Shown: in pieces, positions 43,288-53,850 of the stretch
Position numbering within the stretch: position 1 is the first letter of the stretch
How the letters are laid out: each line of letters opens with the position of its first letter
From: Candidatus Poribacteria bacterium
GTDB taxonomy: Bacteria; Poribacteria; WGA-4E; WGA-3G
NCBI GenBank assembly: GCA_003635255.1
Contig: PYJC01000068.1
Span: 1 to 64,000 of the forward strand
Reading direction: 5' to 3'
DNA length: 64,000 bases
Notes under the pieces: model-generated
What the model was told of the DNA's origin: nothing
What the model saw: the letters and a program-made list of their open reading frames with translations, nothing else
Database searches by the model: none
Made by a program: the position numbers and the translations under genes

Positions 43288-44988
43288 TCAATACAACACA
43301 TGCACGCGGTTTTTCCCACGCACCGTCTCATCTGGCATCGTCATTGGCACCTCAACGACAACAATTAACGCGCCATCCTCACTGATCGCAAGCGTATCAT
43401 AAGGCAGCTGCCCTTCCGTTCGATAGGTGTACAGGTATTTTGATAAACCGCTGCCTTCCGCCATCAGGTCGAATACTGACACGCCATGGAGGCTCTCATT
43501 TGGGTCCTGTGTACGCTTAGAAACAGACAACACGGCGTAACGATCCATTGCATCAATACGTAAACCCTGCGGCATATTCTCAAGTTTCCACTGCCAGATT
43601 TTTTCTCCACCCCATGAATAAGCAAATAGCGTCATCGCATTCGGATGTGATGCCGACGGTCTTTGCGCCCCCTTCCGGAGATGATACGGGATATAGGTGA
43701 CCCCGGTAACGAAGAGTGCCGCCGCATCTGTTGCACCAATCGTACCAGCAGTCGCGACGACAGGAACACCACTCACCTCCAATGGTGTCGTCAAGTTCTC
43801 CTGCCATATCGATTCCGACTTGTTCGTATCGAAAATGAACGCACGACCATCGTCCGCTGTTACGTTTATGAATTTACCGTCGGCTGACATGCTGACCCCC
43901 CGCCAAAACGTGACCTGTGGGAAATACTCGCGCAGCGGTTCAATATCCGCTTGCCACTTTTCCGCGCCGTCTTCCGCGTTAAGAACAACGAGTTTTCCGT
44001 TACCAGCATCATTTCCATCGGTTGCGCTCCCTTGTAGATTATGTCCCGCATCTGCTACGAGGGCGAGTGTTTTCCCGTCAGCACCTACATCAAACCAGCG
44101 TATTATCTTCCGAGTCGCACCGTCGCGCGGCCATTTCCAGATAACATCTCCGGTTTCACTGTTAAACCTATAAAGTTGCGATTTCTTAACCGGCACCTCG
44201 TTTTGTTTCCACGAATGCACACCCGCAACCAATAGGTCCCCGTTCGCCAATGTTCGCATACATGATGGACCAGGGTAACTGACCCACGCAAAGTTGCTGT
44301 CGGGATTGCTCGGCGTAGAGGTCTCAATGTCATCGGCGGTGCGATATTTCCAGCGGAGTGTCGGATTCTCAGATGTGAAATCGTAACAATAGATGAACCC
44401 GTCTGCCGCCTGCTCACCGATATAGAGCAAGTTACTATCTGGACTGAACACCATTCTTCTGACATAGCCTTCCGAAATCCGAGTTTTCCAGAGTGTTTCG
44501 CCTGTAAGTGCTTGGAGAACTGCGATGTGTCCGCTATCCGTAGCGATTGCCAATTTATGGGTAGATGGTGCCTTTCGATGTCCTAAAGCAATTGCGGTCG
44601 GTTTCGCGGGTTGACGGAGGCTTTCCATGAGCGACAAAAGTCCATCTAATTCAACCGTCCGAATAAGGTATGATGTCGGCTTCAGCGGCGAGGTCGTTGT
44701 TACTTCGCTATCGTCTAAGCGAAATTGATAATCCTTGTTCGGTTGCCACGTGAATTGCAGTAGAATGCGATTGGTATCAAGTCGTTGGACTGCGGGTACT
44801 TCGGTTAATTCCTGTGCCGTGCCGTTAAATACCATCGCGACATTGATTTTGTCTGATATACCCTCTTTATGTTCAGTTTCAACGACTACGCCTGTCCGAA
44901 CCCAAGTGACACGCATATCGGCTGTCGAAATACCAATCGGTAAAATAACAAACAGACAGAGAAAAGTAAAAAATTGAATTCGCTTCAT
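43288..44988 (-). CDS. exported beta-propeller protein (PQQ/WD40-like)
   Basis: 566 residues. A signal peptide (about 1-23, ending S-T-A-D) is followed by a short N-terminal beta domain (about 25-100, V-P-A-V-Q-R-L, then F-T-W-Q-P-N-K-D-Y-Q-F) and a beta-propeller (about 120-566) with PQQ/WD40-like blades such as L-T-G-E-T-L-W-K and D-G-A-E-K-W-Q-A. It lies downstream of the lipoprotein/ECF-S-like gene on the same strand, with a 277-base repeat element between them. The N-terminal domain resembles that of that protein. AAGGAACA precedes the ATG. Confidence 0.75.
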   Translation of the reverse strand: MKRIQFFTFLCLFVILPIGISTADMRVTWVRTGVVVETEHKEGISDKINVAMVFNGTAQELTEVPAVQRLDTNRILLQFTWQPNKDYQFRLDDSEVTTTSPLKPTSYLIRTVELDGLLSLMESLRQPAKPTAIALGHRKAPSTHKLAIATDSGHIAVLQALTGETLWKTRISEGYVRRMVFSPDSNLLYIGEQAADGFIYCYDFTSENPTLRWKYRTADDIETSTPSNPDSNFAWVSYPGPSCMRTLANGDLLVAGVHSWKQNEVPVKKSQLYRFNSETGDVIWKWPRDGATRKIIRWFDVGADGKTLALVADAGHNLQGSATDGNDAGNGKLVVLNAEDGAEKWQADIEPLREYFPQVTFWRGVSMSADGKFINVTADDGRAFIFDTNKSESIWQENLTTPLEVSGVPVVATAGTIGATDAAALFVTGVTYIPYHLRKGAQRPSASHPNAMTLFAYSWGGEKIWQWKLENMPQGLRIDAMDRYAVLSVSKRTQDPNESLHGVSVFDLMAEGSGLSKYLYTYRTEGQLPYDTLAISEDGALIVVVEVPMTMPDETVRGKNRVHVLY

Positions 44989-45355: not shown

Positions 45356-47287
45356 CTAATCCGCCACACGCCATAAACCCCGTCCTAATCTCGCACCGAG
45401 AAGTACACCGATAAATGTATAGACAAACCCTTCTATCAGAACTCGAAGCACAATATACCAATCGGCATAGAAAAGTCGATAGAACAGCATAGAAAGTTGG
45501 AAATCGACATAGACAGCGAGCGCGTCGCAGATCCCCAGCACAACAGCCCACGCCAATATACTCCGTCCCCGCACAAACAGGAATCCTGTTTCCAACAGCA
45601 AAACACTCGTGCCGGTATAGACAATCGCCATCGGTGTGAAAAGTCCGAACGTAACGCCGCTAAGCAGTAGACGCACCGCAGAGACAAGCAGGATTACGCC
45701 GCTCCCTTTATTGTGCCGTTTCGCGTCGGTGCGATCGGAACTCGTCGGATCCCCGTTAATATAAATTAGCAAGGCAGTCAGCAAGGCGTAATAGAGCGTC
45801 TCATTAATCAAACCACTCACCAGCACAGAGATCGGACCGAGGAGCGCACTGATTAAGTTGAGGAACAGCGTTGACGGGACCATCACCGCTACAAAAACCG
45901 TCGTACCGAACAGCGAGATCACAATAATCTGTTTTGTTGTAAAGCCCGAAAAAATTCGCTCGTGAAATCGTCCAACGATCGCAAAGCCGATACTACTGCT
46001 AATAATCGCCAATAGACTAATGAGCAGCGCTTGTTGGTTTGGAACGACCAAGTGTAGTGGACGTTGTTCGCGCAGAATCGTCGCGTCACTGCCCCAAACT
46101 TTCACCGCAATATCACGCATATACGCCCCAGGGATCGCCTGTTCTGGCTCACCTTGCCTCATATATACTGGATGAAAATAGATAGGCAGTGGGATCTCCG
46201 TAACCACTCCCGCCGGTAGGCTCGCAAACGCTATGCTCCGATTTGTACCGCCGTTCGTTGTTTCTGGAGGCGCGAGAAACGCAACAGTTGCACCACTCTT
46301 CATATCTGTGTTGACCGATGAGACGACCACATGGATCGTCTCTTCACCCGTATTCCGTAGCCGTATGGCCTGATAGGTCATCGGTTCAAACGCATTCGTC
46401 GGTGGTGTTCCGAGCCAACTGAATAATGGACGCGCATGGTAGATAGTATCTTCTCGCTGTCTCGGGTCCACTATCCCTGTTGCATCTGTAGGCATCTCAA
46501 TCGATGCTATGGAGAGGTGCTCGGCGATCTCTGGAACAGTTGCTATCCGCAGCTGCACCCTTGCCTGCTGCTCCCACATCTGCCCTGTATCTGTTCTGAA
46601 ACGAGCAATACCCGAAATTTCTTGATTATCCGTTTGGCTCACCTCGGATGTCTTCAAAACTAACTCCCGATACCAAACTTCCGAGGCAACCTTAAATCTG
46701 TCCGTCGTCGAGAGACAGGTCTCCCCGCCGACTATTTCACTTTTCCAGTCTGCAGGTGATCTAACAATAGTTAACGTCCGGGGCAAGCAGAGTTTGAGAT
46801 CAAAAGTTGTTGGGACATTCCCGTTTGTAACGAGAACTGTGGCTGTCATTTCGCTTTCGTGCAAAACAAGTGCCTTTTGATTGCTACCCGACACATTTTC
46901 CGGATCCGACTGCATCGCAGCACCGTACGGAATAGCAATGTCCAAGTTTCCTTGTGTGTATACGCGCGGCGCGGTTACCCTTTGCTTATCAACGCTTCCT
47001 GTCGACAAGATCGCTTCAAATCTATAGGTCTCTCCCGCATCCCATTCAAAATAGAGTGGCTCTGTCTGCCGAGGTGATGTAGGGAAGTTAAGTTGTGCGA
47101 CCATTACATCGTCCGCATTAAAAGCGTTCAGACGCTGGACCGGTGCTTCTGCACTGAACTGCACCTTGGCACCCAACGAAAAGAACGTCACTTTCCATGA
47201 AAGTGGTTCCTCTTTGGAGGTTGAAGCACAACTGATTAGGAAAATGAGCAGTGACAGGCACCAGACTGCTTTTTTTATCGCTGTCAT
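45356..47287 (-). CDS. lipoprotein with ECF S-component-like membrane domain
   Basis: 643 residues. A lipobox L-I-S-C (Cys 20) marks a lipoprotein signal. A beta-rich exported part (about 25-400) contains A-P-V-Q-R-L and E-W-D-A-G-E-T-Y-R-F near its start, similar to the next gene. From about residue 420 come seven or eight transmembrane helices whose pattern recalls ECF transporter S components. A lipoprotein signal with a C-terminal membrane domain is unusual. No EcfA/EcfT genes are present here. Function unknown. GGGGAAAA precedes the ATG. Confidence 0.6.
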   Translation of the reverse strand: MTAIKKAVWCLSLLIFLISCASTSKEEPLSWKVTFFSLGAKVQFSAEAPVQRLNAFNADDVMVAQLNFPTSPRQTEPLYFEWDAGETYRFEAILSTGSVDKQRVTAPRVYTQGNLDIAIPYGAAMQSDPENVSGSNQKALVLHESEMTATVLVTNGNVPTTFDLKLCLPRTLTIVRSPADWKSEIVGGETCLSTTDRFKVASEVWYRELVLKTSEVSQTDNQEISGIARFRTDTGQMWEQQARVQLRIATVPEIAEHLSIASIEMPTDATGIVDPRQREDTIYHARPLFSWLGTPPTNAFEPMTYQAIRLRNTGEETIHVVVSSVNTDMKSGATVAFLAPPETTNGGTNRSIAFASLPAGVVTEIPLPIYFHPVYMRQGEPEQAIPGAYMRDIAVKVWGSDATILREQRPLHLVVPNQQALLISLLAIISSSIGFAIVGRFHERIFSGFTTKQIIVISLFGTTVFVAVMVPSTLFLNLISALLGPISVLVSGLINETLYYALLTALLIYINGDPTSSDRTDAKRHNKGSGVILLVSAVRLLLSGVTFGLFTPMAIVYTGTSVLLLETGFLFVRGRSILAWAVVLGICDALAVYVDFQLSMLFYRLFYADWYIVLRVLIEGFVYTFIGVLLGARLGRGLWRVAD

Positions 47288-47306
47288 TATTTTCCCCAGG
47301 CCGGTA

Positions 47307-47653
47307 GGTGCGGTTTGATGAAGTTTAATTATTTAAATCGGTAATTCTGATCGCTTTTCTGTCTGAATCGCGGAAGGCACAGAGGACACCGAGGACGCGG
47401 AACTAAGAGATTGTTTTCTTTCCGCCCACATCTCTTAGGAAGTGCCATGCAGAATTTAGCGTCGCCTTTTCCGCGTTCTCCGCGTTCTCCGCGCACTCCG
47501 CGATTCAGACGACAAGATAACGCACCTCACACAAGAAAACATAAACAAGATATCTATGATTCGCAAATTACCGATTTATTTAATCTTCATCAACCGCACC
47601 GGACTGCCCCAAAGAATTACCGAATTAATTTTTTAATCTTCATCAAACCGCGC
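47307..47653. mobile_element. nested inverted-repeat element B
   Basis: The left arm (47307-47347, GGTGCGGTTTG then ATGAAG ... CGGTAATTC) pairs with two right arms, 47565-47600 and 47614-47651, which suggests a duplicated end. A further inner inverted repeat of 14 bp (GTCTGAATCGCGGA, 47361-47374 against 47497-47510) encloses a tract of CCGCGTTCT units. The outermost GGTGCGGTTT/AACCGC parts equal the intact hairpin at 40202. No coding. Confidence 0.6.
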
Positions 47654-47666
47654 TGCAGATGCTAAG

Positions 47667-48992
47667 TTAAAGTCCTTGTCCTATCAGCACCAGATCAAGG
47701 ATATTCACCACTTCGTCACCATTAACATCGGCGATGATACCAGGTCCCTCATCACCCAAGAACCGAGCTGCAATTACCAAATCTGACGCATTGACAAACC
47801 CGTCGTTGTTTAGGTCTTCGCGGCGCGGTATAATCGTTGCGAACTCCAAATTATTGGCACCGTGACCAACGTGATAGGATCGTAAAAGTGACGCATCTGC
47901 CACGTCCATGACGCGAACGTAATTCTGTCCGCTGCCCCCCCAGTCAGGTTGTGTGATATAGAGACTTCCATCTGGCGCAAAGGTCAAGCCGCCACTGACA
48001 GATGTATCTGCATCGTTGCTGAAGTTGGCAATCGTGTTATCTTCGTCACGGATCCAGTCTCGCGCGACGATATCGTAGATAAGCAAGCCGGGGTTTCGCC
48101 AACTGCCTTGCATAAACAACTGTTTTTCTGAATTGAGAGCGATGGAACCGGGTGTGAAATCGAGTTTAACCGTTTCCACTACCTCATCAGTATTCGCATC
48201 AATCAGAACGAGATGCCCGAGGACATCGTTGTAATTGCCTGTCGTCTTAACAATAACAGTCGATTCACCATCGTTGAGGATTTGACCCGCGTTCGTCGGT
48301 ACCGGAATAGATTTCAATATGATATCTGTCTCTGTATCAATCACTGTGACACTACTATCATAATAACTTACTCTCCCGGCAACGGGATCCCACTCCCATG
48401 CGGGGTTCGAGACATAGGCTTTGCCGTTGAGAAGCGTGATACCCGTCGGTTTGTTGAAAGAACCCGTGAGGACCTTCGTCACATTGCGATTCGGAATGTC
48501 AACGACATGCACCTCATGCGCCGCGGCACACGTAACGTATAACTTCTGATCACTGACCAAAGCGACCTGCTGTGGGGTTGTACCCGCTTCCATCGGGATT
48601 TCGCCAACAAACTCTCGATCTTCCAAGTTAATAATCAAAATATTGTCACCGGAACTCATTCCACCCGTGATAGGTAAGTTGAAACTCGTGACATAGGCGA
48701 GATGCCCGTGAACAGAGAGACCAATTGCCCGCCGCCGCAATCTCGGAGCAAAGCCGATGGAGAGTATCTCGTTGTCAACAGCCTGTCTCTCATTTGGCTC
48801 TTCCAGATCAATGAGTGAAACTGAGGCGATGATGCCCAAATCCGGATGCGTCAGCGCATTTATGACAACAGCCGTGTTCGCCTCTTCTGTTTGTCCTAAA
48901 GCAGGATTAAGGGTGAGAGTGAAAAGGATCGCGCCTATAAACAGGAGCGAATAGCGCGAGAAATGTCGCCAAGTGAAAAAAAATCTGTTCAT
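47667..48992 (-). CDS. exported beta-propeller-dockerin protein under cobalamin control
   Basis: 441 residues from the ATG at 48992, which has GGAGG upstream; a frame to 49031 would start inside the terminator hairpin. A signal peptide or N-terminal anchor (about 15-35) is followed by a YncE-like beta-propeller (about 40-380), with repeated V-I-D-T and L-V-L-I-D-A-N-T-D-E-V blade edges. The C-terminus has two calcium-type loops, D-L-N-N-D-G-F-V-N-A-S-D-L and D-V-N-G-D-E-V-V-N-I-L-D-L, a dockerin type I pattern. The gene is directly behind a cobalamin riboswitch and terminator, so it is presumably repressed by B12 and may help capture corrinoids. Confidence 0.8.
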   Translation of the reverse strand: MNRFFFTWRHFSRYSLLFIGAILFTLTLNPALGQTEEANTAVVINALTHPDLGIIASVSLIDLEEPNERQAVDNEILSIGFAPRLRRRAIGLSVHGHLAYVTSFNLPITGGMSSGDNILIINLEDREFVGEIPMEAGTTPQQVALVSDQKLYVTCAAAHEVHVVDIPNRNVTKVLTGSFNKPTGITLLNGKAYVSNPAWEWDPVAGRVSYYDSSVTVIDTETDIILKSIPVPTNAGQILNDGESTVIVKTTGNYNDVLGHLVLIDANTDEVVETVKLDFTPGSIALNSEKQLFMQGSWRNPGLLIYDIVARDWIRDEDNTIANFSNDADTSVSGGLTFAPDGSLYITQPDWGGSGQNYVRVMDVADASLLRSYHVGHGANNLEFATIIPRREDLNNDGFVNASDLVIAARFLGDEGPGIIADVNGDEVVNILDLVLIGQGL

Positions 48993-49012
48993 TAAAACCT
49001 CCGTAATGAAAC

Positions 49013-49045
49013 AAAAAACCCCTGCTTTCATTGAAAAGACAGGGG
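49013..49045 (-). terminator. riboswitch expression-platform terminator
   Basis: On the minus strand CCCCTG ... CAGGGG forms a bulged stem (49019-49045) followed by TTTTTT (49013-49018). It lies between the cobalamin riboswitch and the start codon of the propeller-dockerin gene, the normal place for ligand-controlled termination. Confidence 0.8.
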
Positions 49046-49186
49046 ATGCGGCGACACTCTATGTATGCTAAATCCTGCAATTGTGTCCGAAGATATTGTA
49101 CCTTACACGGGTTCTTCTATACTAACAGGATACTGCTGCGCGCTGTTCCACCGCTTTCCCGCGAAAGCAGATGCGTGAAACACGAT

Positions 49187-49352
49187 CCAGGCAGGTCTCC
49201 TGACTTCCGATCTTGCGTCCCCTGAACCTTCCCATCAGTTGGTTGACAGTGGTTTTTTCAGCGGATATTTGTGATCGTTCACAGTGGCGGGGCCGTGGCG
49301 GATTCTCACCGCACTTCCCTATTCTCCGGCTTTCTCCGGCACCTGAACCGTT
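49187..49352 (-). promoter_or_regulatory. cobalamin (B12) riboswitch
   Basis: On the minus strand the conserved blocks occur in the known order: GGTGCC near 49340, AATAGGGAA, GAGAATCCG, then the B12-box core CCGCCACTGTGA, and finally GTCAGGAGACCTGCC (49188-49203). The aptamer is followed by a terminator and the propeller-dockerin gene. High B12 would stop transcription. Confidence 0.92.
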
Positions 49353-49376
49353 AATTTATTCTATTGTAATGCATAT

Positions 49377-49405
49377 ATTATATCACATTACGACATTTTT
49401 TGCAA
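49377..49405 (-). promoter_or_regulatory. promoter of the riboswitch transcript
   Basis: Minus strand: TTGCAA (49400-49405), 17-bp spacer, TATAAT (49377-49382). The start site would fall about ten bases before the aptamer. The same TTGCAA/TATAAT pair with 17 bp is found before sucC. Confidence 0.65.
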
Positions 49406-49444: not shown

Positions 49445-49473
49445 TTGACAACACAAATTAGATGTGGTATTAT
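49445..49473 (+). promoter_or_regulatory. promoter of the hisI-trpEG leader
   Basis: TTGACA (49445-49450), 17-bp spacer, TATTAT (49468-49473). It faces the leader peptide whose ATG is at 49519. Confidence 0.7.
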
Positions 49474-49518
49474 TAATAGCAGTGTTCAAAATCAAATATT
49501 TTGTTGAAAGTGAGAAAA

Positions 49519-49620
49519 ATGATACTTGTACGCTCACACTCCAACCCGCATAGCGTATCTAACCATTGGCATTGGTGGCGGTCCAGTTGCTTGTGGGGGA
49601 GTGTGCGCTCAAACGGATAA
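49519..49620 (+). CDS. 33-residue His/Trp-rich leader peptide
   Basis: A small ORF of 33 codons ahead of hisI-trpE. It contains four Trp (W17, W19, W20, W26) and four His (H7, H11, H16, H18), with the run H-W-H-W-W at 16-20. This is far richer than normal protein and typical of attenuator leaders. A stem between CACACTCC (49535-49542) and GGAGTGTG (49598-49605) would be opened by a translating ribosome. An intrinsic terminator lies 50 bases past its stop. GAAAGTGAG precedes the ATG. The arrangement predicts that scarcity of charged tRNA-Trp, and perhaps of tRNA-His, raises expression. Confidence 0.72.
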   Translation: MILVRSHSNPHSVSNHWHWWRSSCLWGSVRSNG

Positions 49621-49672
49621 CTGAAATAGAGATTGAAAATCGTCGTTTTTCATTTTTAAGTCCTGTTGAAGC

Positions 49673-49711
49673 CTTATGCACACCGATCCCGGTAGCATAA
49701 GTTTTTTTTTT
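49673..49711 (+). terminator. leader terminator before hisI
   Basis: CTTATGC (49673-49679) pairs with GCATAAG (49695-49701), followed by ten T (49702-49711). It lies between the leader peptide stop and the hisI start, where an attenuator should stand. Confidence 0.8.
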
Positions 49712-49764
49712 GCATAGCTCACAGGTTACCAAAACTTGCTATTGAAAATAAGAGGAGAATCCGA

Positions 49765-51864: not shown

Positions 51865-52428
51865 ATGGTTTTAATGATTGATAACTACGACTCTTTTACC
51901 TATAACTTGGTGCAGTATTTGGGTGAACTCGGTGCTGAACTCGAGGTCCATCGGAGTCGAAAGATAGGATTGGATACATTAGACGCACTGGCACCCGAAC
52001 GGATTGTCATTTCACCCGGACCTTGCACACCGAAAGAGGCGGGTATATCCAACGATACTATACAACACTTCGCCGGGAAAATCCCGATCTTAGGCGTCTG
52101 CCTTGGGCATCAGTGCATCGGAGACGTATTCGGTGGTGATGTCGTTCGTGCGGATCGGTTGATGCACGGCAAAACCTCAATGATCCACCATAACGGCACC
52201 GAACTCTTTGAGGGATTGGATAACCCGTTTGAAGCGACACGCTACCACTCACTCATCGTGAAAAAAGATACGTTACCCGATTGCCTTGAGATTACCGCGT
52301 GGACAGATCAGGACGAAATCATGGGACTCCGGCATAAGAGTTTGCCTATTTGGGGCGTACAATTCCACCCGGAATCCATTCTGACAGCCGCCGGGAAAAG
52401 TCTACTCAGCAATTTCTTAACGCTATAG
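51865..52428 (+). CDS. trpG: anthranilate/aminodeoxychorismate synthase glutaminase
   Basis: 187 residues, class I glutamine amidotransferase. The nucleophile C79 sits in G-V-C-L-G-H-Q, and the His-Glu pair in Q-F-H-P-E-S. It supplies ammonia to TrpE and, in many bacteria, also to PabB. Neighbouring trpE makes the tryptophan role the first choice. AAGGAAAA precedes the ATG. No trpD, trpC, trpB or trpA follows. Confidence 0.93.
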
Positions 52429-52448
52429 ACCAACAGAAAGGTTTAATA

Positions 52449-53207
52449 ATGACAAAACAGACAAGTGCTACGCCGGTCTTAGTTTCCTGGTCGTCAGGCA
52501 AAGATTCGGCGTGGGCACTTCATACCTTACGCCAACAACCTGAACGCTACGACGTACGTGGCATCTTTACGACCGTCACGAAGACGTTTGACCGGGTCTC
52601 TATTCATTCTACACCTGCATGGGTACTGAAACAGCAGGCAGAAAAACTCAGCGTGCCGTTATACGAGATACCGATCCCTTATCCGTGTTCCAACACAATC
52701 TATGAGGAGGCAATGCGAAAGTTCCTTGCTGAAGTCAAAGCGTTGCCTGAACATTTGACAGCGTCACATTTCGCATTCGGGGACCTCTTCCTGGAAGACA
52801 TCCGTGCATACCGCGAGGATAAACTCAAAGGCACCGGTTTCACACCAATTTTCCCAGTGTGGGGAGAGGACACACCGCTACTTGCGCAAAAGATGATTGC
52901 TTCTGGCTTGCGCGCTATCATCACTGCGCTTAATCCTACCAAAGTCCCCGCCGACTTTGCAGGACGATGGTTTGACGCGGACCTCCTCGCAGATTTGCCA
53001 GACGGCGTGGATCCACTCGGTGAAAACGGGGAGTTCCATACCTGCGTCGTGGATGGACCGATGTTCAGTTCACCTGTCGCCGCGAAACCGGGCGAAGTCG
53101 TCCAGAGAGACATCGTCTCTAAAAAGGATAAAGATGACAAAATTCACACAAGCAGCAACACGTCACCGACTTATATCTATGCTGATGTGGTACCTATAGA
53201 TGAATAA
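52449..53207 (+). CDS. Dph6-like PP-loop ATPase (first copy)
   Basis: 252 residues. The PP-loop pyrophosphatase motif S-S-G-K-D-S-A is at the N-terminus, and the later G-E-N-G-E-F-H-T is typical of the diphthine-ammonia ligase (DUF71) family. In archaea and eukaryotes it amidates diphthine on elongation factor 2; bacteria lack diphthamide, so the substrate here must be different. AAAGG precedes the ATG at 52449; an in-frame ATG at 52350 lies inside trpG. Its stop overlaps the next gene by eight bases. Confidence 0.85.
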   Translation: MTKQTSATPVLVSWSSGKDSAWALHTLRQQPERYDVRGIFTTVTKTFDRVSIHSTPAWVLKQQAEKLSVPLYEIPIPYPCSNTIYEEAMRKFLAEVKALPEHLTASHFAFGDLFLEDIRAYREDKLKGTGFTPIFPVWGEDTPLLAQKMIASGLRAIITALNPTKVPADFAGRWFDADLLADLPDGVDPLGENGEFHTCVVDGPMFSSPVAAKPGEVVQRDIVSKKDKDDKIHTSSNTSPTYIYADVVPIDE

Positions 53208-53850
53208 TTGGAAGAAAGCAGCTGTGCTGTGGACAGGCGGAAAAGATTCCGCACTCGCATTTCAAGTCTCCTTGAATCTTTACGATATAGGGAGGCTTGT
53301 CTGTTTTGTGCCAGCGGACAACCGACAATTCTACGCGCATCCAACGCAACTCATGGAACTACAAGCACAAAAGATCGGGATGCCAATTGAATTCGTGCCG
53401 ATTTCCGAACCCTATAAACAGAGTTACTGCCAACAAATTGAGGCGATTAGAGACAGTGGTACTGAAGTGTTAATTACCGGAGATATTTCTACTGTCGGTG
53501 GGATGCCGAATTGGATAGAGGAAGTCGCAGCAGGTTTGGTGGAAGTCTACAAACCGTTGTGGGAATCGGATCGGCATACAATATTGGATACCCTCATCGC
53601 CAACAAATTTAAGGTCGTCTGTTCCCTCGCTTACAAAAAGCACTTCCAACCGACTATTGCCGGTAGGTATTTCGATGCTAAACTCATTTCAGAACTGAAG
53701 CAACTCCCAATTGACGCATGCGGTGAACAGGGTGAATACCACACATGGGTATTAGACGCACCGTTCTTCAAGGAGTCAGTGCAGTTAGAAGGCACACGTG
53801 TAGTTGATGTTGACGAGTATTGCTACCTCACCTACGAACAAGCAATTTAG
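53200..53850 (+). CDS. Dph6-like PP-loop ATPase (second copy)
   Basis: 216 residues of the same fold: W-T-G-G-K-D-S-A (10-17) and C-G-E-Q-G-E-Y-H-T at about 190. Its start overlaps the last eight bases of the first copy, pointing to translational coupling and perhaps a heteromer. The two proteins are diverged, so this is an old duplication. The substrate is not known; both follow trpG, which carries a glutaminase domain that could hand on ammonia. Confidence 0.82.
   Translation: MNNWKKAAVLWTGGKDSALAFQVSLNLYDIGRLVCFVPADNRQFYAHPTQLMELQAQKIGMPIEFVPISEPYKQSYCQQIEAIRDSGTEVLITGDISTVGGMPNWIEEVAAGLVEVYKPLWESDRHTILDTLIANKFKVVCSLAYKKHFQPTIAGRYFDAKLISELKQLPIDACGEQGEYHTWVLDAPFFKESVQLEGTRVVDVDEYCYLTYEQAI

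Follow-up and report, generated by a model that had tools for sequence, protein, structure and literature searches.

A cobalamin riboswitch heads a candidate corrinoid capture and uptake operon in Candidatus Poribacteria

B12 auxotrophy and the exchange of B12 shape microbial communities, including those of sponge holobionts. For B12 capture at the cell surface, the described counterpart of the locus reported here is the BtuB-BtuG loci of Bacteroides; BtuG was reported only from Bacteroidetes (Wexler et al. 2018, PMC6143338), and its structures are 8BLW, 8BMX, 8BMY, 8OKV, 8P97, and 3DSM (PMC10404256). For transport, the counterparts are YkoE, the thiamine S-component of the group I ECF transporter YkoE/YkoDC (5edl; PMC5037267), and ECF-CbrT, the B12 transporter of Lactobacillus delbrueckii, which was predicted by the same kind of reasoning as is used here (PMC5997447). 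A further counterpart is the cohesin-dockerin pair of cellulosomes.

The locus lies in the window, the 64,000-nt stretch of DNA that was analysed, from an assembly of the sponge-associated Candidatus Poribacteria (G000; 5.4 Mb, 82% complete) that was queried family by family and compared with 60 related genomes, 50 of its own order and 10 other members of the class. It resembles the Bacteroides loci in its cobalamin riboswitch, its exported propeller, and the profile match of that propeller to BtuG chains (E 1e-24), and operons of riboswitch, BtuB, and BtuG occur in class relatives of the window organism. However, it belongs to another phylum, and in its own order the propeller (gene A) has no TonB receptor as a neighbor and no lipobox, ends in a dockerin or a FlgD/T9SS-type C-terminus, and has two other genes, B and C, as partners. 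We propose, with a probability of roughly 0.6, that A-B-C is a cobalamin-repressed, diverged corrinoid capture and uptake operon of Candidatus Poribacteria.

The riboswitch leader and the genes behind it

Gene A occupies positions 47667 to 48992 on the minus strand, and the earlier note had described a full B12 aptamer with a promoter and a terminator upstream of it. All three elements were recovered. The sigma-70-like promoter (49377 to 49405, minus strand) consists of TTGCAA (49405-49400), a 17-nt spacer, and TATAAT (49382-49377); it agrees with the consensus at 10 of 12 positions and has TG before the -10 element, an assignment by consensus match only. The aptamer begins 16 nt downstream and was detected by cmscan as a complete RF00174 (49173 to 49361, minus strand; model positions 1-189 of 189) with 113.8 bits against a gathering cut-off of 31.5 and an E-value of 9.3e-28, so the match is not due to chance. 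Folding revealed an intrinsic terminator (49013 to 49045, minus strand) between the aptamer and the ribosome-binding site, a bulged 27-nt GC hairpin, CCCCTGTCTTTTCAATGAAAGCAGGGG, followed by TTTTTT; a pattern scanner gave no terminator match there because of the bulge. The same hairpin was present at eight loci of genus members. This expression platform precedes the start codon, as the hairpin and T-run lie between the aptamer and GGAGG-ATG. The likely translation start is the ATG at 48992, with GGAGG upstream, rather than 49031, since the first 13 codons of the longer open reading frame overlap the terminator and the Shine-Dalgarno sequence; the corrected product has 441 aa.

A genome-wide search for other B12 riboswitches in G000 returned only the RF00174 upstream of A. 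Among the related genomes, 56 of 60 contain RF00174, and the aptamer is retained in relatives of A: 47 of the 49 A genes of the order are preceded by it on the same strand at a distance of 127-375 nt, the two others being in G022, at a contig edge, and in G049. In a second group (51-56% identity to A), it lies upstream in 9/9 tested loci holding A. In G049, a HEARO RNA and an RRXRR/HNH (IscB-like) gene come after an RF00174 on L078 (G049:C394, 1263-3159), and A-B-C is found on another contig (L079), where the riboswitch was undetected; a mobile element may have separated the switch from the operon.

Downstream of A on the same strand lie gene B (45356 to 47287, minus strand), encoding a 643-aa protein with a lipoprotein ectodomain and a C-terminal transmembrane domain, and gene C (43288 to 44988, minus strand), encoding a secreted PQQ/BamB-type propeller of 566 aa. 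The named GTDB genomes hold 60 loci with protein B, all 60 titled Poribacteria; 57 of them have A 5' of B on the same strand, 58 have C 3' of B, and the exceptions lie at contig ends or belong to G038, where the cluster is split. Protein B was found in 47 of the 50 genomes of the order, compared with none of the 10 other class genomes, and only in Poribacteria. Intergenic gaps within the cluster are mostly below 320 nt in the relatives, and consecutive genes in G040 share one-base overlaps; the A-B gap of the window (379 nt) exceeds most of these. This gap (47288-47666) contains repeated stretches, for example at about 47300-47350 and 47570-47660, and is probably the site of a small inserted repeat.

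In G038, B-C is split from A, and there are separate RF00174 elements for A (L077) and for B-C (L076), an arrangement which argues that B and C are members of the B12 regulon independently of A. The initial picture of one gene behind the riboswitch with no adjacent transporter thus had to be revised: B and C follow on the same strand in a conserved cluster, B carries a transporter-like membrane domain, and A, instead of standing isolated, heads three genes that include a candidate transporter subunit.

Two other features of the window were recorded. Upstream of a divergent hisI-trpE-trpG cluster, the interval 49445-49730 (plus strand) contains a strong match to a promoter (TTGACA-17-TATTAT), an extended GC hairpin, and, just before hisI, a terminator-like stem with T10 (fold z-score -2.2); there is no Rfam match in this interval, and it is possibly an undescribed amino-acid operon attenuator. 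At 52350-53850 (plus strand) lie two adjoining ATP pyrophosphatase genes of the Diphthami_syn_2 type (PF01902, DUF71-type). A PF01902 gene also stands first under a cobalamin riboswitch in G051 (L074:5195-5860), ahead of a TonB receptor.

The exported propeller and its dockerin

Protein A begins with a signal peptide, MNRFFFTWRHFSRYSLLFIGAILFTLTLNPALG, followed by a YncE/BtuG-like propeller and a Dockerin_1 end, in agreement with its first description as an exported propeller with a C-terminal dockerin apart from the corrected start. Every genome of the order but G048 has a propeller orthologue. The signal peptides of A and of its orthologues in the order contain no lipobox, whereas those of the class-level homologues do, and no TonB receptor was found beside A in its own order. 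The profile built from A and its homologues matches the BtuG1, BtuG2, and BtuG3 chains with E-values of 1e-24 to 1e-20 over up to profile positions 8-343. The strongest PDB profile match is 1l0q, a generic YVTN surface-layer propeller (E 1e-53), so binding specificity is not readable from homology. In the printed alignments, A and BtuG1 both lack Trp194 and Trp272 of BtuG2, and within the pocket set Trp194/Trp272/Tyr316/Tyr335, A has a near-invariant D-W pair near Tyr335.

Class relatives that have no B provide the link to BtuG. In G052, G053, G054, and G058, RF00174 is followed by a TonB receptor and then by a propeller lipoprotein; CobT follows in the G052 operon, and BtuR accompanies that of G053. 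The G054 propeller matches BtuG1 with an E-value of 4e-32 (phmmer) and BtuG2/3 with about 1e-29, compared with 9e-8 for the generic 1l0q, and judged by sequence it is a clear BtuG. Given the order of riboswitch, TonB receptor, and propeller in these relatives and the match of the A profile to BtuG, A occupies the place of BtuG. The suggestion that A is a surface corrinoid-binding or scavenging factor is accordingly still the best reading that the sequences offer, as its homologues adjoin TonB receptors under the same riboswitch and BtuG is among its nearest solved relatives. A separate arrangement was seen in G051 (L061, G051:C51, 210-5675), where a cobalamin riboswitch is followed by genes for an intein-containing class III ribonucleotide reductase (NrdD), an NrdG-like protein, and a propeller lipoprotein, so that a B12-independent isozyme and a propeller share one unit.

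The dockerin type I domain of A (47682 to 47819, minus strand; residues 405-450 of the 454-aa open reading frame) has two DxNxD-type repeats, the paired calcium loops of the family, and matches Dockerin_1 (PF00404) with an E-value of 1.8e-7 and 31.7 bits against the Pfam cut-off of 22.9. The A proteins of its own genus and of genus g5 terminate in a dockerin; those of G038 and G049 have a FlgD/T9SS-type end after the dockerin, and those of families f2 and f3 have no dockerin. Dockerin-type ends are common in G000, which has 17 cohesin matches. A cohesin gene lies directly 3' of A in three family-f4 genomes (G038, G045, and G047), and its product has a FlgD/T9SS-type C-terminus in G045 and G047. 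It is a natural inference that A would be docked to a surface cohesin, and the earlier conjecture of a cohesin partner gains support from these gene contents. The arrangement resembles that of cellulosomes in its Dockerin_1 end, genomic cohesin domains, and adjacent cohesin genes. However, the cargo would be a vitamin-capture candidate and not a glycoside hydrolase, the docking is putative, and two of the three adjacent cohesin proteins carry a FlgD/T9SS-type sorting domain at the C-terminus.

Two further observations concern C-termini. Many exported Poribacteria proteins, among them dockerin-less f2/f3 orthologues of A, have a terminal motif resembling W-G-x-[LIV]-K with several residues after it, which may be a sorting signal; examples were noted at five loci. 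In G042, which lacks B, the gene after A (L114:4994-10255) encodes a leucine-rich-repeat protein of 1753 aa whose C-terminal domains are dockerin-like and FlgD/T9SS-type.

Protein B and the metabolic setting

Protein B has a lipobox cysteine, Cys20, that is invariant among 21 sequences. The predicted model and Foldseek indicate a beta-sandwich (Ig-like) extracytoplasmic part at about residues 31-414 (46046 to 47197, minus strand), one connecting helix, and a six-helix membrane domain at residues 441-643 (45359 to 45967, minus strand). As Foldseek with full-length B gave only integrin-like and other beta-sandwich matches with low TM-scores, the membrane domain was folded alone (pLDDT 80). The top Foldseek match of this model was YkoE (5edl; probability 1.00, E 0.011, TM 0.53), and the next match had a probability of 0.14. 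VIA aligned 169 residues of the model with 5edl at 3.0 Å and a Z of 12.7, a value at the edge of the chance level for helical bundles. The VIA-align Z values for other structures were 11.3 for 4hzu_S, 10.2 for TmRibU, 9.9 for 4huq_S, 9.4 for the metal transporter 4m5b, 9.1 for ThiT, and 8.5 for CbiMQO; other S-component structures were within the top 19, and pMMO/AMO subunits also reached about 10.

The cobalt-transport permease component PF09819, named ABC_cobalt in Pfam, was matched by two members of the alignment of this domain (best E 0.0015) and was not found in the window protein itself. No relevant NCBIfam match was obtained for B, and its profile matched no PDB sequence, including solved S-components. 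The fold match and PF09819 are two weak, independent lines that point the domain toward ECF-type permease components, and with moderate strength we assign the modelled domain a six-helix S-component fold. As a rejected candidate, homology of the N-terminal domains of B and C gave an hhalign P of only 0.011 (probability 3.8%) and is not claimed.

A narrower reading is that A alone is a B12 surface scavenger, B and C being co-transcribed envelope or adhesion proteins, and that the corrinoid enters through another TonB receptor and an unrelated inner-membrane carrier. It would fit the facts that only A has an independent link to BtuB operons, that the ectodomain of B is Ig-like and C is a common PQQ-type propeller, that each genome has 5 to 17 TonB receptor matches, and that in G047 and G042, RF00174 and A are present and B is undetectable. 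We nevertheless consider it unlikely, because the detached B-C of G038 has its own RF00174, the A-B-C trio is kept throughout the order, and the membrane domain of B resembles S-components in the model.

A B12 uptake operon is consistent with the metabolism of the order. CobS and CbiC were each found in none of 14 genomes of the order and are present in several class relatives; their absence makes de novo cobalamin synthesis very unlikely. B12-binding domains are present in the order, one of them in a MetH-sized open reading frame of G000. No clear FecCD permease was found in several genomes, including the single-contig G004, G009, G021, G028, and G044, and no full-length match to the profile of the riboswitch-linked TonB receptor (BtuB) was found in G009, G021, G028, G038, or G044. 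Within the order, such full-length matches (about 210-255 bits) occur only in G000, G004, G017, G036, and G037, and four of the five lie in the FecCD permease region. BtuFCD was judged an unlikely identity for the FecCD locus of G000, because the counterpart of that locus in G036 includes a TonB receptor and an ABM-family (heme-monooxygenase-like) gene and neither locus has an RF00174; where FecCD loci are present, their gene content looks like heme uptake.

EcfT was found in 12 of 14 genomes of the order and not in the incomplete G000. In G038 and G044, a fused double ECF ATPase (above the NCBIfam cut-off) lies beside EcfT with no adjacent S gene, a pair arranged like YkoD-YkoC, and no known riboswitch, including TPP, was found at the EcfT loci examined. 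The likeness to YkoE/YkoDC thus consists of this pair and of the best fold match of B. In contrast to that system, the S gene would stand apart from the ATPase and T genes, the riboswitch is for cobalamin and not TPP, B adds an extra helix and an ectodomain, and the substrate would differ. ECF-CbrT is similar in another respect, as it also involves an auxotroph without BtuCDF, a separately encoded ECF module, and a predicted cobalamin substrate; unlike it, B as the proposed S-component has no sequence match to solved S-components, is nearer to YkoE than to group II, and carries a 400-residue lipoprotein ectodomain.

B could also be an ECF-type transporter of another substrate needed at low B12, for example cobalt, a precursor of thiamine, or a compound related to methionine, with A and C serving the same substrate. 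The closest fold is a thiamine S-component, the weak family match is named for cobalt, and control of cobalt transporters by cobalamin riboswitches is established. However, the relatives of A include BtuB-linked propellers, no TPP riboswitch was found at the examined loci of the ECF module, and with no CbiC or CobS in the order, imported cobalt would not serve B12 synthesis; we consider this reading quite improbable. We would place equally far down the idea that A is an ordinary surface YVTN/YncE propeller that binds no corrinoid, its riboswitch reflecting a B12-dependent lifestyle switch in attachment or host interaction: the generic 1l0q match, the frequent dockerin-type ends of G000, and the lack of the BtuG2 pocket tryptophans suit it, but sister propellers lie within TonB receptor/CobT/BtuR operons under the same riboswitch, and the single riboswitch of an auxotroph is expected to serve uptake first.

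A proposed route for corrinoids

In the preferred reading, that of a corrinoid capture and uptake operon, plentiful intracellular B12 would make the riboswitch favor the terminator and turn the operon off, and A-B-C would be made when B12 is scarce. A would be exported to the cell surface and bind corrinoids as a diverged BtuG-type propeller; in its own genus, its dockerin would tether it to a cohesin protein at the surface, in place of the lipid anchor of BtuG. We infer an outer-membrane step of uptake after capture. B would be a lipoprotein of the inner membrane. Its six-helix domain would serve as the ECF-type S-component for the corrinoid, driven by an ECF module encoded elsewhere in the genome, and the beta-sandwich ectodomain of B, together with C, may receive the ligand or pass it on in the periplasm.

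It is a more tentative proposal, to which we give somewhat less than even odds, that the order replaced BtuB-BtuG-BtuFCD with a new form of cobamide uptake made up of a cohesin-docked propeller, a new class of ectodomain-fused ECF S-component, and a dedicated second propeller under a single B12 riboswitch.

The locus would extend BtuG-type capture beyond Bacteroidota, and it points to dockerin-cohesin pairs as possible anchors for a nutrient-capture protein instead of an enzyme. Many B12 auxotrophs have no recognised inner-membrane B12 transporter; B is a specific candidate for one, and it comes from a lineage in which several complete genomes have no clear FecCD permease.
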